Below are positions 13,109 to 32,037 of a stretch of 64,000 bases of DNA, piece after piece; position 1 is the stretch's first letter; the number at the start of each line of letters is the position of its first letter. The DNA is taken from positions 186,001 to 250,000 of the forward strand of contig NZ_JNNO01000001.1 in the NCBI RefSeq assembly GCF_000735585.1. Direction: 5' to 3'. The position numbers and the translations under genes were made by a program. The notes under the pieces are model-generated. The model was not told the origin of the DNA. It made no database searches and was given only the letters and a program-made list of their open reading frames with translations. This DNA comes from Devosia sp. LC5 (GTDB lineage Bacteria; Pseudomonadota; Alphaproteobacteria; Rhizobiales; Devosiaceae).

Positions 13109-13130
13109 AGGCACCTCTCCTCCCCAACCG

Positions 13131-13167
13131 CCGCATCTCCCTCGGGCTCGACCCGAGGGAGATGCGG
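13131..13167. repeat. REP-like palindrome, 16-bp perfect stem
   Basis: CCGCATCTCCCTCGGG at 13131-13146 pairs exactly with 13152-13167 around the loop CTCGA. It is the same element as the four copies around 28.0-28.6 kb. It lies between two convergent genes and could serve as a bidirectional transcription barrier. Confidence 0.8.
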
Positions 13168-13185
13168 CGAGTAGAGAAACGCCCC

Positions 13186-25066: not shown

Positions 25067-25345
25067 GTCATATCTCCTGAAACGGCCCTTGGCGACGCTC
25101 CGGAGACGATCGCGCGCACAGGCGCAAACCGGTCAATCGGGGAGCAATGCATAGAGGGCGAAGCGCAGAACGCGCGACAAGCATTTGTGCACATCTGGTA
25201 TGGCAGATGCAAGACAGTCGGCGCCCGCAAATTTTCCTCTCTCTAAGAGAGAGTGCAGCCACTCCCATTTGCCCACATTGACAGCGCCGCTCGCCTTCAC
25301 CATGTTGCGCCACCTCAAGACAAGCGGTTGCGGAACGGAATATCC
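25067..25345. other. Divergent intergenic region between aldo/keto reductase and topA
   Basis: About 280 bases without a supported gene. It contains a short AT-richer patch (AATTTTCCTCTCTCTAAGAGAGAG, about 25230-25253) with the palindrome CTCTCT-AAGAGAG, a possible regulatory element for topA. No clear sigma-70 boxes can be asserted. Confidence 0.3.
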
Positions 25346-27994
25346 ATGAAGGTCGTCGTCGTTGAAAGTCCGGCTAAAGCCAAGACAATCAACAAATATC
25401 TGGGCTCGGGCTATGAAGTCCTGGCGTCCTTCGGCCATATCCGCGATCTCCCCGCGAAGGACGGATCGGTCCGTCCCGATGAAGATTTCGCCATGTCCTG
25501 GGAGGTCGATACGGCCTCCAGGAAACGCGTTGCCGACATTGCCAACGCCCTCAAGGGCGCCGATGGCCTGATCCTCGCCACCGACCCTGACCGCGAAGGT
25601 GAGGCGATTTCCTGGCACATCCTGGATGTCCTCCGCGCCAAGAAGGCGATCAAGAAGGACACATCCGTCCAGCGTGTCGTGTTCAACGCCATCACCAAGG
25701 ATGCCGTGACCGCCGCGATGGCCAGGCCGCGCGATATCGATATGCCGCTGGTGGATGCCTACCTGGCCCGCCGTGCCCTCGATTACCTCGTGGGTTTCAC
25801 CCTCTCGCCCATCCTCTGGCGCAAGCTGCCCGGCTCCCGTTCGGCCGGCCGCGTGCAGTCGGTGGCGCTGCGCCTGGTCTCCGACCGCGAAGCCGAGATC
25901 GAAAAGTTCAAGGCCGACGAATATTGGACGGTCGAAGCCAAGCTGGCCCAATCGGGCAAGAGCTTCCTGGCGCGCCTTTTCTCGGTCGATGGCAAGAAAA
26001 CCGATAAGCTCGACATCAAGACCGGCGAGAACGCCGCAGAGCTCAAGCAATTGATCGAGGCGGGCCAGTTCAACGTCTCCAACGTCGAAAAGAAGCCGAC
26101 CAAGCGCAATCCCTACGCGCCCTTCACCACGTCCAGCCTGCAGCAGGATGCGTCGTCCCGGCTGGGCCTCTCGCCCAACCGTACCATGCAGATCGCCCAG
26201 CGCCTCTACGAAGACGGCCTGATCACCTATATGCGTACCGACGCCGTGCAGATGGCGCCCGAGGGCATATCCATGGCTCGCTCGGTCATCGGCAAATATT
26301 TCGGCGAGGAATACCTGCCGGAAAAGGCCCGCATCTATCAGACCAAGGCCAAGAACGCCCAGGAGGCGCACGAAGCCATCCGCCCCACCGACATGTTCAA
26401 GCGGCCGGAAAATCTCAATCTGGATGCCGACCAGTCCAAGCTCTATGGCCTGATCTGGCGCCGTACGCTGGCCAGCCAGATGAAGTCCGCCGAGATCGAT
26501 CGCACCACTGTCGACATCGCCGTCAATGTGCCCGGCCGCCAGGTCGAACTGCGTGCTGTCGGCTCGGTCGTCACCTTCCCGGGCTTCCTCAAGCTCTATG
26601 GCGTCGAGGTCAAATCCGACGAAGATGAGGAAGACGAGGACAGCCGCGAACTGCCCCCGCTCGCCGTGGGCGACAAGCCCGACCTGCAATCGGTCGATAT
26701 CGAGCAGCATTTCACCCAGCCGCCGAGCCGCTATACCGAAGCCAGCCTCATCAAGAAGATGGAAGAACTCGGCATTGGCCGCCCCTCCACCTATGCGGCG
26801 ACGCTGACCACCCTCAAGGATCGCGACTATGTCCGCCTTGAGGGCAAGGCCCTGCATCCCGAAGATCGCGGCCGCATCGTCACCGCTTTCCTAGAGAGCT
26901 TCTTCACGCGCTATGTCGAATATGGCTTCACCGCGGGCCTGGAAGAACAGCTCGACCAGGTCTCCGCCGGCGACCTTGAATACAAGACCGTGCTGCGCGA
27001 TTTCTGGAAGGATTTCACGCATGCCACCGACGAGATCAAGGATCTGCGCGTCTCCGAAGTGCTTGACGCGCTGAACGAATTGCTCGCCAGCCGCATCTTC
27101 CCGCCCAAGGAAGACGGCTCCGATCCGCGCCGCTGCCCCACCTGCGGCACCGGCCAGCTCTCGCTCAAGCTGGGCAAGTTCGGCGCCTTTATCGGCTGCT
27201 CGAACTACCCCGAATGCAAGCACACCATGCAGCTCTCGGACGCGGCCAATGGCCAGTCCAGCGAAGCCGCACAGGGCGATGGCATCCTGGGCACCGATCC
27301 GGAATCGGGCGAAGAGGTCCACCTCAAGACCGGCCGTTTCGGCCCCTATGTCCAGCTCGGCGACGGCAAGGAGCCCAAGCGCAGCTCCCTGCCCAAGGGT
27401 TGGGAAGCAACCACGCTCAATCTCGAACAGGCGCTCAAGCTGCTGTCGCTTCCCCGCGAGGTGGGCTTGCATCCCGAGACCCAGCTCCCCATATCCGCTG
27501 GTATCGGCCGCTACGGCCCCTTCGTCCTGCATGATGGCAAATATGCCAACCTGCCCGATGTCGAAGAGGTTTTCACCGTCGGCATCAACCGCGCCGTCGA
27601 CCTGATCGCCCAGAAAGCCGCTGGCGGCTTCAAGCGCGGAGGCGGCGCCTCGGTGGCCGCCATCCAGACCTTCGAGCACGATAACGGCCCCATCACCGTC
27701 CGCGCCGGCCGCTACGGCCCCTATGTCAACCAGGGCAAGATCAACGCCACCATCCCCAAGGACGTGCAGCCCGAGGCGGTAACGCTCGACCAGGCCGTGC
27801 AGTGGATCGCAGCGCGAGCCGAAGCCACGGGGACGAAGGTGAAGAAGGCTCCGGCAAAAAAGGCCGCTGCCAAGAAGCCGGCGGCGAAAAAGGCAACAAC
27901 TAAAGCTGCAGGTGAAAAGCCTGTGGCCAAGAAAGCGGCGCCGAAGAAGGTGGCGGTGAAAAAGGTCGTGTCGGACGAAGACGTGCCTTTCTAG
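25346..27994 (+). CDS. topA: DNA topoisomerase I
   Basis: Relaxes negative supercoils by a type IA strand-passage mechanism. 882 residues. Toprim begins VVVESPAKAKTINKYLG and includes ATDPDREGEAISWH; the catalytic Tyr lies in LITYMRTDAVQMA. The C-terminal part has a four-cysteine zinc ribbon (CPTCGTGQ...CSNYPECKH) plus repeated RYGPYV/GRFGPYVQLG modules, and ends with a Lys/Ala-rich tail of about 55 residues. Start chosen at the Toprim N-terminus. A homologue of the E. coli TopAI inhibitor lies 12 kb upstream. Confidence 0.96.
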   Translation: MKVVVVESPAKAKTINKYLGSGYEVLASFGHIRDLPAKDGSVRPDEDFAMSWEVDTASRKRVADIANALKGADGLILATDPDREGEAISWHILDVLRAKKAIKKDTSVQRVVFNAITKDAVTAAMARPRDIDMPLVDAYLARRALDYLVGFTLSPILWRKLPGSRSAGRVQSVALRLVSDREAEIEKFKADEYWTVEAKLAQSGKSFLARLFSVDGKKTDKLDIKTGENAAELKQLIEAGQFNVSNVEKKPTKRNPYAPFTTSSLQQDASSRLGLSPNRTMQIAQRLYEDGLITYMRTDAVQMAPEGISMARSVIGKYFGEEYLPEKARIYQTKAKNAQEAHEAIRPTDMFKRPENLNLDADQSKLYGLIWRRTLASQMKSAEIDRTTVDIAVNVPGRQVELRAVGSVVTFPGFLKLYGVEVKSDEDEEDEDSRELPPLAVGDKPDLQSVDIEQHFTQPPSRYTEASLIKKMEELGIGRPSTYAATLTTLKDRDYVRLEGKALHPEDRGRIVTAFLESFFTRYVEYGFTAGLEEQLDQVSAGDLEYKTVLRDFWKDFTHATDEIKDLRVSEVLDALNELLASRIFPPKEDGSDPRRCPTCGTGQLSLKLGKFGAFIGCSNYPECKHTMQLSDAANGQSSEAAQGDGILGTDPESGEEVHLKTGRFGPYVQLGDGKEPKRSSLPKGWEATTLNLEQALKLLSLPREVGLHPETQLPISAGIGRYGPFVLHDGKYANLPDVEEVFTVGINRAVDLIAQKAAGGFKRGGGASVAAIQTFEHDNGPITVRAGRYGPYVNQGKINATIPKDVQPEAVTLDQAVQWIAARAEATGTKVKKAPAKKAAAKKPAAKKATTKAAGEKPVAKKAAPKKVAVKKVVSDEDVPF

Positions 27995-28038: not shown

Positions 28039-28069
28039 CCGGATCTCCCTCGGGCTTGACCCGAGGGCC
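28039..28069 (+). repeat. REP-like palindromic element, copy B
   Basis: 31-base element CCGGATCT-CCCTCGGG-CTTGA-CCCGAGGG-CC; the 8-bp stem around CTTGA is perfect. It is the exact reverse complement of 28113-28143, 43 bases away. It sits between topA and the end of the GIY-YIG gene. Confidence 0.85.
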
Positions 28070-28112
28070 TTTAGGATCGGCACGTTCCTAACGAGTGTGC
28101 ATTGGGAGAGTG

Positions 28113-28143
28113 GCCCTCGGGTCAAGCCCGAGGGAGATCCGGG
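28113..28143 (-). repeat. REP-like palindromic element, copy C
   Basis: Perfect inverted copy of the element at 28039-28069 over all 31 bases. Together they form a REPIN/BIME-like pair that can fold into one large cruciform downstream of the GIY-YIG gene. Confidence 0.85.
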
Positions 28144-28183
28144 GTTAACTAATAAGTGCGTCGCCACCAAAATGCGACACACC

Positions 28184-28474
28184 TCACCCGTGCCCTAACC
28201 CAAAATACAGATCATCCCATTCGGGGTTATGCTTCTCGATCAGCTCATCCTTCCACGCCCGCACCCAGTGCTTGATATTATGCTCGCGCTGCATGGCCCG
28301 GTGCATATTCTGGTGTTCCTCGAAATACACCAGCAGATGGCAGTGATGTTCCTTGGTGAACCCCGGAACCACCGCGTTCTTATGCTCCCACACCCGGCGA
28401 ACAAGATCGCCGGTCGCACCGACATAGACGGTCCCAAATTTCCGGTTTGCCATGATGTAAACCCAAGCCGCCAT
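28184..28474 (-). CDS. GIY-YIG nuclease family protein bracketed by REP pairs
   Basis: A 96-residue single-domain endonuclease of the small UPF0213/YhbQ-like kind. Expected active-site positions are present: VYI at 5-7, VYVG at 16-19, Arg27 and His31 in VRRVWEHK, Glu64 in MQREHNIK, and Asn83 in KHNPEW. The ATG at 28474 has GGGGA six bases upstream; the frame is open through the neighbouring REP element, but that stretch is not part of the domain. Inverted REP pairs lie on both sides (28039-28143 and 28513-28623). It may act on those palindromes; this is inference. Confidence 0.85.
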   Translation of the reverse strand: MAAWVYIMANRKFGTVYVGATGDLVRRVWEHKNAVVPGFTKEHHCHLLVYFEEHQNMHRAMQREHNIKHWVRAWKDELIEKHNPEWDDLYFGLGHG

Positions 28475-28512
28475 CCTCTTCCCCGAGCTTGAACCCAAAA
28501 CCCAACCACCCA

Positions 28513-28543
28513 CCGGATCTCCCTCGGGTTTGACCCGAGGGCC
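28513..28543 (+). repeat. REP-like palindromic element, copy D
   Basis: CCGGATCT-CCCTCGGG-TTTGA-CCCGAGGG-CC, same orientation as copy B with one base changed in the loop. It lies just upstream of the GIY-YIG start and is inverted relative to copy E. Confidence 0.85.
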
Positions 28544-28592
28544 ACCATCCGACGGCACAGTGTTTCAATTTGAGCTCAGTGGTTCACCGGCA

Positions 28593-28623
28593 GGCCCTCG
28601 GGTCAAACCCGAGGGAGATGCGG
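28593..28623 (-). repeat. REP-like palindromic element, copy E
   Basis: Inverted partner of copy D. It carries the matching TCAAA loop, so the D/E pair shares its own loop variant, and it differs only in AGATGCGG for AGATCCGG. Spacing to D is 49 bases, close to the 43 bases between B and C. Confidence 0.85.
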
Positions 28624-28714: not shown

Positions 28715-30997
28715 ATGCCCATCCCACCCAAAAAACCAAAAAACACCTCCGGCCCCAGGCGCGCGCGACAACCCGCTGCTGGCGCCTTACCCACCCGCGA
28801 ACAGCTGCTTGAGGCTCTCGCCCAGCAGTCCGACATCAAGGGCAAGCGCGATCTTGCCAAGGTCTTCGGCATCCGCGGCGACATGCGACGGCCGTTCAAG
28901 GCCATGCTGGCCGAGCTTGAGGGCGAGGGGATTATCACCCGCACCCGCAAGGCCCTGCGCCGCACCGCCGCCCTGCCCCATGTGACCGTGCTCGACATCC
29001 CCACCGATGCCGACCCGGACAATCTCCATGCCTTCCCCGCGCAGTGGAACGAGGAAGAGGGCGAGCGTCCGCGCGTCGCCGTCATCCAGGGCCGTGATGC
29101 TCGCGTTGCGCCTGCTCCGGGCGACCGTATTCTGGCCCGCATCGATGCCGGCGAGGCCGAAGTGCCGGTCTATACCGCCAGGCCGATGAAAATCCTCGAC
29201 AAGCCCCGCAAGGGCCAAATTGGCATTGTCCGCATGGATGATGATGGCGCCCGCCTGATCCCGGTCGATCGCAAGCAGAAGGAAATGCGCATTCCGCTCG
29301 GCGATCTGCTGACCGCCAGCGATGGCGACCTCGTCGAAGTCGAGGTCAAGCTATCTGGCCGCCTGATGATTCCGCGTGCCAAGGTCGTCGCAGTCATTGG
29401 CAACCCCATGTCGGAAGGCGCGATCAGCCTGATCGCCATCCATAATCTCGAAATCCCCTACCGCTTCCCTGCCTCCGTCACGCGCGAGGCCGAAGAGGCC
29501 AGGGAAGCCACCTTAAAGGGCCGCGAAGACTGGCGCGAATTGCCGCTGGTCACTATCGACCCGCCCGACGCCAAGGACCATGACGACGCCGTCTATGCCG
29601 AGCCCGATACGGACGCAGCCAATCCCGGCGGTTTCATCGTCTATGTCGCCATTGCCGACGTCGCCGCCTATGTGCGCCCCGGTACTGCGCTCGATCGCGA
29701 AGCCTATCTGCGCGGCAATTCGGTCTATTTCCCTGACCGGGTCGTCTCCATGCTGCCCGAACGCATTTCCAATGAGCTGTGCTCGCTCAAGGAAGGCGAG
29801 CCACGCGCTTCGCTCGCCGTACGCATGGTCATGGGCGCAGATGGCCGCAAGCGCAGCCACAGCTTCCACCGGGTGCTGATGCGTTCGGCCGCCAAGCTCA
29901 GCTACCAGCAGGCTCAGTCCGCCATCGATGGCAATCCCGATGACAAGACCGGCCCGATCCTCGAACCGATCCTGCGTCCCCTCTGGGCCGCCTACGCCAC
30001 CATGGCCAAGGCGCGCGACCAGCGTGGTCCGCTTGATCTGGATCTGCCCGAGCGCAAGATCGTGCTCGACGACAAAGGCCTGGTGAAGGATATCCGTATC
30101 CCCGACCGGCTCGATGCTCATCGCCTCATCGAGGAAATGATGATCGCGGCCAATGTGGCGGCGGCCGAAACGCTGGAATCCAAACGCTCGCCCCTGCTCT
30201 ATCGGGTGCATGACGAGCCCAGCAGCGAAAAGCTGCAGGCCTTGCGCGATTTCCTCGGCTCGCTCGACATCGCGGTCAAGAAGTCCGATTCCGTCCGCGC
30301 CAGCGATTTCAATGGCGTACTCGCCCAGTCCCGCAAGGCGGGCAATATCGAGCAGGTCAGCGAGATGGTGCTGCGCAGCCAGGCCCAGGCACTCTATGCG
30401 CCGGACAATTACGGCCACTTTGGCCTCAACCTAGACCGCTACGCCCACTTCACCTCGCCCATCCGCCGCTATGCCGATCTCATCGTGCACCGCGCGCTCA
30501 TCAAGTCACTGGATCTGGGCAGCGATGGCCTGTCCGAGCAGGAAGGGCTCAAGCTCACCGGCATCGGCCAGCACATCTCCGCCACCGAGCGCCGCGCCAT
30601 GCTGGCCGAGCGCGAAACCGCCGACCGCCTGCTGGCCCAGTTCCTCTCCGCCCAGATCGGCGCCCGCTTTGAGGGCCGCATTTCCGGCGTTACCCGTTCG
30701 GGCCTGTTCGTGCGCCTGCTCGATACCGGGGCCGATGGTTTTATCCCCGCCTCCACTCTGGGGCAGGATTATTACCGCTATGTCGAAGAGATGCAGTCCA
30801 TGGTGGGCGAGCGTACCGGCGAAAAGTTCAGCCTGGGCGATCGCGTAACCGTACGGCTGCTCGAAGTTGCCCCGATTGCCGGCGCCATGCGGTTCGAATT
30901 GCTGTCCGAAGGGACGCGCGTCAATCCGTCATCTGTCCGCCGCGGGCAGAAGCGCCCATCTGGGAGTTACGGGCCCAAGGGCCGCAAAAAGAGGTGA
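28715..30997 (+). CDS. rnr: Ribonuclease R
   Basis: Processive 3'-5' exoribonuclease that degrades structured RNA. 760 residues. In order: a winged-helix N-terminus, cold-shock domains, the RNB catalytic domain with IDPPDAKDHDDAVYAE (metal-binding aspartates) and FTSPIRRYADLIVHRAL, an S1 domain (ARFEGRISGVTRSGLFVRLLDTGADGFIP), and a short basic tail ending GPKGRKKR. It is followed after 4 bases by the DUF983 gene. It may start at this ATG or a few codons downstream. Confidence 0.95.
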   Translation: MPIPPKKPKNTSGPRRARQPAAGALPTREQLLEALAQQSDIKGKRDLAKVFGIRGDMRRPFKAMLAELEGEGIITRTRKALRRTAALPHVTVLDIPTDADPDNLHAFPAQWNEEEGERPRVAVIQGRDARVAPAPGDRILARIDAGEAEVPVYTARPMKILDKPRKGQIGIVRMDDDGARLIPVDRKQKEMRIPLGDLLTASDGDLVEVEVKLSGRLMIPRAKVVAVIGNPMSEGAISLIAIHNLEIPYRFPASVTREAEEAREATLKGREDWRELPLVTIDPPDAKDHDDAVYAEPDTDAANPGGFIVYVAIADVAAYVRPGTALDREAYLRGNSVYFPDRVVSMLPERISNELCSLKEGEPRASLAVRMVMGADGRKRSHSFHRVLMRSAAKLSYQQAQSAIDGNPDDKTGPILEPILRPLWAAYATMAKARDQRGPLDLDLPERKIVLDDKGLVKDIRIPDRLDAHRLIEEMMIAANVAAAETLESKRSPLLYRVHDEPSSEKLQALRDFLGSLDIAVKKSDSVRASDFNGVLAQSRKAGNIEQVSEMVLRSQAQALYAPDNYGHFGLNLDRYAHFTSPIRRYADLIVHRALIKSLDLGSDGLSEQEGLKLTGIGQHISATERRAMLAERETADRLLAQFLSAQIGARFEGRISGVTRSGLFVRLLDTGADGFIPASTLGQDYYRYVEEMQSMVGERTGEKFSLGDRVTVRLLEVAPIAGAMRFELLSEGTRVNPSSVRRGQKRPSGSYGPKGRKKR

Positions 30998-31740: not shown

Positions 31741-32037
31741 ATGCGACGTCGATGCTAGCAATCCGTTAGCACAAAGGCATAAGTGGCTGGTCCGGAGCGG
31801 CATGTCGAAGAGGCCACTCTATCCGCGTCCGGACCAGCCGCCCCACGGGGCTCAGGAGTTGCGGCATTCCCGAGACAGGCCGTAGGGAGCTGTGAGCGCG
31901 GATGCGTAAGTAGTGCCCCGCAGCTTGATGGGACCCTACTCCGGAGCATCGGAAACTCAAGCAAATCCGGGCGCCTGGCGCCGGTAAGTTCTTGTTAATT
32001 ATAACAGATAACCCTAACGCGTCCAATTGCAGCTTTC
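31741..32037. other. Structured intergenic region after rpmG, possible ncRNA
   Basis: About 300 bases without a plausible ORF. A 12-bp perfect inverted repeat (GGCTGGTCCGGA at 31785-31796 with its complement at 31828-31839) is followed at once by CCCC-AC-GGGG, and at about 31968-31985 a GC-rich imperfect hairpin (CCGGGCGCC/GGCGCCGG). It does not match the motifs I know for SRP RNA, tmRNA or RNase P. It may be a non-coding RNA or the 3' region of pleD transcripts. Confidence 0.35.

Follow-up and report, generated by a model that had tools for sequence, protein, structure and literature searches.

A 64,000-nucleotide stretch of Devosia sp. LC5 (contig NZ_JNNO01000001.1, positions 186,001 to 250,000; hereafter the window) contains a gene for a small GIY-YIG nuclease framed on both sides by inverted pairs of a repetitive extragenic palindrome (REP), i.e. 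in the position held elsewhere by REP-associated tyrosine transposases (RAYTs). The same architecture recurs at relatives of this gene in many phyla, and the tie between this GIY-YIG subfamily and REPs is very likely real and general. We regard the locus as probably a REPtron-like module, with a small GIY-YIG nuclease standing in for the HUH (Y1) transposase. A recurring REP-associated module of this kind had been proposed in the first-pass annotation of the window, and the proposal is now supported by the enrichment of REPs around the genes, by agreement between protein tree and REP type, and by REP counts across genomes.

Four copies of a 31-base REP form two inverted pairs (Table 1), as the first-pass annotation had described. 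Copy B, however, lies one base away from the position given there, leaving a spacer of 42 instead of 43 bp, and the claim that it is the exact complement of copy C had to be dropped: it has one mismatch to the reverse complement of C, and its exact reverse complement is A. Copies A and C differ by one base. The 96-codon GIY-YIG gene between the pairs was confirmed both by reading of the sequence and by Pfam. With up to three mismatches allowed, the REP core matched seven times at five places in the window (0 expected from 100 shuffles), and four cores fell within 585 bp, where about 0.011 would be expected (the members of a pair not being independent). Chance occurrence of the palindromes was ruled out by the shuffle control together with the flank controls given below (other open reading frames (ORFs), random intervals). 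No Rfam family matched the REP/GIY-YIG locus at gathering threshold.

Throughout the host genome, 52 exact cores (CTCGGGYTTGACCCGAG) were found, and 79 when one more loop base was left variable; the reversed-pattern control yielded 0 in both cases. Among the exact cores, 32 are arranged in 16 inverted pairs (within 80 bp, start-to-start distance 52-74 bp), which makes them dispersed REP doublets forming hairpins (REPINs). The Y1_Tnp domain (PF01797) of the HUH transposase typical of RAYTs/REPtrons had no match in this genome (47 contigs, 98.9% complete). In the family Devosiaceae it was present in two of 101 genomes, CTCGGG REPs occurring in 60 of the 101, and a RAYT is thus unlikely to be the mobiliser in these genomes. 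Four frames of the host genome carry a GIY-YIG domain, three of them small and one long. Another palindrome family flanks the gene on contig C9; the short gene on contig C12 belongs to another subfamily and has no flanking palindrome.

The association with REPs extends well beyond the window. For each gene locus, the two 120-bp flanks were compared and the best ungapped inverted repeat between them was scored, a score of 16 or more being counted as strong. Within the family, relatives of the nuclease were detected in 71 of the 101 genomes (up to five matches per genome, some of them broken), giving 112 loci including 5 duplicates. Where larger windows were available, strong flanking inverted repeats were present at 44 of 78 gene loci as compared with 1 of 989 other ORFs, defined by a simple longest-frame rule (Fisher p 2e-55). 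They were also rare among ORFs of 80-200 aa (1/302) and random intervals (1/1033). After de-duplication, 60 of 107 family loci had strong repeats, 43 of which were palindromic (stem of at least 6). The picture was similar in a sample of named genomes from many phyla (80 loci, one at a contig edge being left out): 50 of 79 loci compared with 3 of 373 ORFs, with 41 of the 50 repeats palindromic. A GTCA-like tag was seen on one side in 40 of these 50 repeats and in 31 of the 60 family repeats. Its orientation (distal, proximal and unclear in 18, 13 and 29 family repeats and in 35, 5 and 10 named ones) was not used as evidence. A second GIY-YIG subfamily served as control and had strong repeats at none of nine loci (scores 6-10), which rules out that REPs are attracted by GIY-YIG genes of any kind. 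The enrichment of REP pairs at this particular subfamily, one of the checks put forward in the first-pass annotation, was therefore found.

Individual loci illustrate the arrangement. Five of seven plasmid loci scored 26 or more. In Azospirillum lipoferum, sufB and sufC are set apart by a REPIN-gene-REPIN unit with the same layout as in the window. In Shinella, the gene is located amid four REPs in two replicons, with pair orientation opposite to that of the window, and two relatives lack both. A further relative of the nuclease, on the Planktothrix plasmid L291 (2489-2773), is located between a gene annotated as an MmeI-type enzyme and drmA (DISARM), amid GTCATTCTGAG-type repeats. Two records labelled Neisseria gonorrhoeae contain an unannotated relative with 49% identity; Neisseria dRS3 repeats are counted among the CGTC REPs in the survey PMC3733652, as far as its consulted part goes.

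These data speak to the possibility of hitch-hiking, i.e. that the gene is an ordinary accessory GIY-YIG gene and that REPs gather around it in permissive intergenic DNA, as terminators or boundaries. REPs are indeed mainly intergenic, and 47 of the 107 family genes as well as two of the seven plasmid genes have no strong flanking repeats. Such an explanation nevertheless appears improbable, given the near absence of comparable repeats at other ORFs, at ORFs of similar size and at the other GIY-YIG subfamily, the near-constant distances between gene and repeats over much of clade C, and the way in which REP type tracks protein clade.

As for the last point, REPs were assigned to eight patterns defined in this analysis and placed on the protein tree. 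Over the 107 labelled rows out of 187, REP type changed 19 times, compared with a mean of 63 and a minimum of 54 in 500 shuffles. The agreement between nuclease phylogeny and REP variants, likewise a check named in the first-pass annotation, held in both subsets (42 labelled named loci, 8 changes against at least 17 when shuffled; 65 family loci, 11 against at least 30). REP counts pointed in the same direction, being higher where the matching nuclease clade was present (per-genome counts and clade lists were entered by hand). In the genus Devosia, the median number of CTCGGG REPs was 19.5 in 28 genomes with the gene, including genome G082 with its weak match, as compared with 1.5 in 12 genomes without it (p 4e-4). 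Type D REPs had a median of 79 in 14 clade-D genomes and of 1 in 87 others. Type A REPs had a median of 21 in 8 clade-A genomes and of 0 in 93 others; two of the eight, G040 and G078, were put in clade A from their flanks and then confirmed by protein similarity, and without them the medians were 13.5 and 0 (p 0.005). A Bradyrhizobium-type REP pattern matched in 12 of 19 named genomes, with 1-57 copies, and its reversed control gave 0.

Clade C allowed the ends of the gene-bearing element to be delimited. The element consists of a CCACCG..CGTCACCCTCGGGCTTGACCCGAGGG end, about 12 further bases common to both ends, and then a mirror-image end. The ends are conserved, and conservation drops beyond the tag, outside the element. 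In much of the clade, spacing is near-constant (22-23 bp upstream, 15-16 bp downstream). Among 14 gene copies, a tandem pair in one genome aside, one pair had common neighbouring genes; others might have been missed because some loci are short. A 29-base extended end was present in 11 of 24 genomes tested; eight of these are among the 12 that have a clade-C gene and three among the 12 that lack one, a trend only (p 0.10). It occurred in 20-33 copies in the clade-C genomes G055, G090, G092 and G093 and in 1-5 copies, partly the gene's own ends, in four others; no copy was found in the clade-C genomes G040, G072, G074 and G081. It was also absent from G000 (Devosia sp. LC5), G004, G010 and G095, all rich in plain CTCGGG REPs. 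The REPIN adjoining the G090 gene has the same inner bases as the clade C element. Since the extended end is a trend across genomes, these data suggest miniature forms carrying the element's ends in part of clade C; as a rule this is not proven.

The protein itself belongs to the GIY-YIG superfamily (Pfam PF01541, 44.2 bits, cut-off 22.6, E=2.4e-11), and a search of NCBIfam gave no match for its 96 residues. Its AlphaFold2 (AF2) model has a mean predicted local distance difference test score (pLDDT) of 93. In the fold search, UPF0213 (1zg2, E 5e-5) was the only match with E<0.001, followed more weakly by Slx1 and the UvrC N-domain (E about 0.05-0.2) and, very weakly, by I-TevI (E above 1). An alignment of 14 diverse members has 19 invariant columns, including Y6, Y17, R27, E64 and N83; we take the catalytic residues to be among these invariant Tyr, Arg, Glu and Asn.

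Comparison of orthologous sites revealed both presence and absence of the unit. In Sphingobium, six of the 11 records that cover most of the site were compared. The unit separates fnrL from a response regulator gene in TomMM7A, TomMM15 and TomTYG46. At this site TomTYG64 has a single symmetric palindrome, in which the outer halves of the two REPs are joined, TomTYG74 has the same hybrid palindrome with two base changes, and TomTYG72 has neither unit nor solo palindrome. In a similar way, the solo REP of the window (Table 1) corresponds to a REP pair at the orthologous site of G083. Solo palindromes with mirrored outer arms, as in Sphingobium (L292/L293) and at 13130-13168 of the window, apparently consist of the outer halves of what was once a pair; singlets arising by deletion inside a pair have been mentioned for REPINs in the consulted part of Bertels and Rainey (PMC3116915). 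Between contig C1 of the host and G083, two of nine host and two of three G083 REP clusters were comparable by script, one being a pair in one genome and solo in the other and one a REP present or absent (the latter alignment read by eye). Between topA and rnr, which flank the module in the window, the gene was found in 3 of 30 loci examined (58 rnr matches): L255 of the host, L257, and L273 at an edge. The topA end was detectable within reach in only 6 of these loci. G117 (L257) has REPIN-gene-REPIN as in the window. G083 has one REP and no gene, compared with four REPs and the gene in the host, with flanks 92 and 95% identical; its interval holds other sequence, so that the site cannot be taken as cleanly empty.

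The solo palindromes bring up the possibility of policing, where the nuclease would cut REP cruciforms or incoming REP-bearing DNA and REPs would persist as its targets. A solo palindrome where a pair, or the whole unit, would otherwise stand would fit cutting followed by deletion, and the nearest folds include, weakly, structure-specific nucleases. Policing is hard to reconcile with matching REPs being more, not fewer, in genomes with the gene, and we give it little credence. Another possibility is a homing-type process, in which REP-free sites are cut, recombination copies the REP-gene-REP unit, and some other enzyme moves the dispersed REPINs. GIY-YIG domains do occur in homing enzymes, I-TevI being a very weak fold match here; the unit is present or absent at one orthologous site in Sphingobium, and some genomes have REPs with no cognate gene. 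Set against this, clade C units are mostly at unrelated sites, unlike homing to one allele, and judging from the model a separate DNA-binding domain would hardly fit into 96 aa. A homing origin is accordingly rated a long shot.

A number of observations weigh against a REPtron-like module. Besides the family loci mentioned above, 29 of 79 named loci have no strong inverted repeat within 120 bp, and the two plasmid genes in question, from R. tumorigenes and Planktothrix, score 7 and 9 (for R. tumorigenes, a REP-like palindrome is visible further downstream, beyond 120 bp). When flanks were swapped between loci, a match remained in 12 of 112 cases, because REP families are common to different loci. 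Genome-level comparisons of REP abundance ignore host phylogeny. REPs abound in some genomes without any gene of the subfamily (114 type-D in G088; 38 and 16 type-A in G086 and G087), G082 combines 26 type-D and 20 type-A REPs with a nuclease match that is only weak, and in Devosia sp. LC5 itself, which harbours 77 type-D REPs (CCCGCGAAAGCGGG), the genome search found no clade-D nuclease. The trend for the extended end is not significant, part of the copies are the gene's own ends, and the end also occurs without a clade-C gene in G099 (34 copies on one contig, the six listed pairs spaced at 43 bp), G067 and G084. In the sister genome G117, the nuclease gene is apparently in a shifted frame. 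No target-site duplication was recognised where the unit is present or absent in Sphingobium. Finally, the REP copies of the window have GATC/CATC at the tag position, i.e. a degenerate tag, and no CCA tail. The first-pass annotation had named two outcomes that would count against it, namely a dispersed palindrome with no enrichment at GIY-YIG genes, or relatives keeping the gene with no REP nearby while the REPs stay abundant. These are not the rule, but both kinds of exception exist, as REP-free genes and as gene-free REP-rich genomes.

Table 1. Features of the REP/GIY-YIG locus and its surroundings (positions in the window)
Feature	Position	Strand	Remarks
REP copy A	28039-28069	+	first pair (REPIN 1)
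REP copy B	28112-28142	-	first pair (REPIN 1); exact reverse complement of A; spacer 42 bp
Candidate REP-associated GIY-YIG nuclease gene	28184-28474	-	96 aa + stop; PF01541
REP copy C	28513-28543	+	second pair (REPIN 2); loop variant TTTGA
REP copy D	28593-28623	-	second pair (REPIN 2); 1 mismatch to reverse complement of C; spacer 49 bp
topA, left neighbour of module	25343-27994	+	TIGR01051, 745.9 bits, cut-off 456.4
rnr (RNase R), right neighbour of module	28715-30997	+	TIGR02063, 677.5 bits, cut-off 597.9
Solo REP	13130-13168	.	outer arms mirror each other, all except 5-base loop

The only Rfam match in the window at gathering threshold was the small RNA EcpR1 (Atu_C6) at 31780-31889 on the minus strand (72.6 bits).

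Many of the flanking repeats found here appear to fit the description of CGTC-tagged REPs by Di Nocera et al. (2013, PMC3733652; statements on this survey refer to its consulted part). These have a CGTC or TGTC tag, a stem of 8-9 bp, a loop of 4-5 bases and a CCA-like tail, occur mostly as inverted dimers and mainly in Alphaproteobacteria, include the dRS3 and RPE-6/RPE-4 repeats, and were apparently without a dedicated transposase. Two of the hosts named there, A. lipoferum and N. aromaticivorans, have the GIY-YIG module on plasmids in our data. The difference is that a candidate enzyme is now tied to these REPs. Term searches of the accessible text found no 'GIY' in that survey, and neither 'GIY' nor 'RAYT' in RepRanger 2025 (PMC12306157). 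The part of PMC9465073 consulted tabulates a GIY-YIG gene and cites a paper on REPs, with no link made between them. A keyword search of the open PMC literature (subscription papers and preprints being outside its scope) found no reported link between GIY-YIG and REP.

Like RAYT/TnpA-REP systems (REPtrons), the module has one nuclease gene with inverted palindromes on both sides, inverted pairs dispersed in the genome, a tagged palindrome foot, and co-segregation of enzyme and repeat; co-evolution of TnpA-REP and REPs is described in the consulted part of PMC8266576. Unlike them, it has a GIY-YIG instead of an HUH/Y1 enzyme and a CGTC-like instead of a GTAG tag. As the working is RAYT-like and the defining HUH enzyme is missing, the module resembles a REPtron and is not a member of that class. 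UPF0213 and other small GIY-YIG proteins (1zg2, 1ywl) share the small single-domain fold, whereas the second small subfamily of the host genome differs in its lack of flanking repeats. A further parallel is offered by miniature inverted-repeat transposable elements and their parent insertion sequences, where short inverted-repeat forms share ends with the gene-bearing form, as in part of clade C. In the present case there is no known transposase, the ends are self-palindromic and no target duplication was found.

To explain these patterns as the work of a REPtron-like module, we propose the following. The nuclease likely acts on REPs, as far as can be judged from sequence comparison. The REPs framing the gene would be its recognition and end sequences, and REPINs elsewhere in the genome would be miniature, non-autonomous forms served in trans. 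The protein might bind REPs folded into a hairpin or cruciform (UPF0213 and, weakly, the branched-DNA nuclease Slx1 being close to it in fold) and introduce a nick at the tagged foot or close by. REPINs could then be copied into new intergenic sites as the nicked intermediate is repaired or replicated, and deletion between stem arms would leave a solo palindrome. We further lean, with more reserve than for the module itself, towards a class of bacterial mobile elements that have a lone GIY-YIG nuclease of about 90 residues as their only enzyme. The CGTC-tagged REPs of different phyla would stem from this class, which would have evolved independently of RAYTs and arrived at the same REP-REPIN lifestyle.

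In Alphaproteobacteria CGTC-tagged REPs are widespread, other phyla have them too, and the consulted part of the 2013 survey left their mobilising enzyme open (PMC3733652). The recurring, clade-matched GIY-YIG gene is a concrete candidate for the missing machinery that spreads this large class of bacterial repeats, and the question becomes testable with one small protein. If true, this would be an independent case of the RAYT-REPIN relation, and the rules governing the persistence of such populations of sequences could be examined side by side for two enzymes of unrelated origin.
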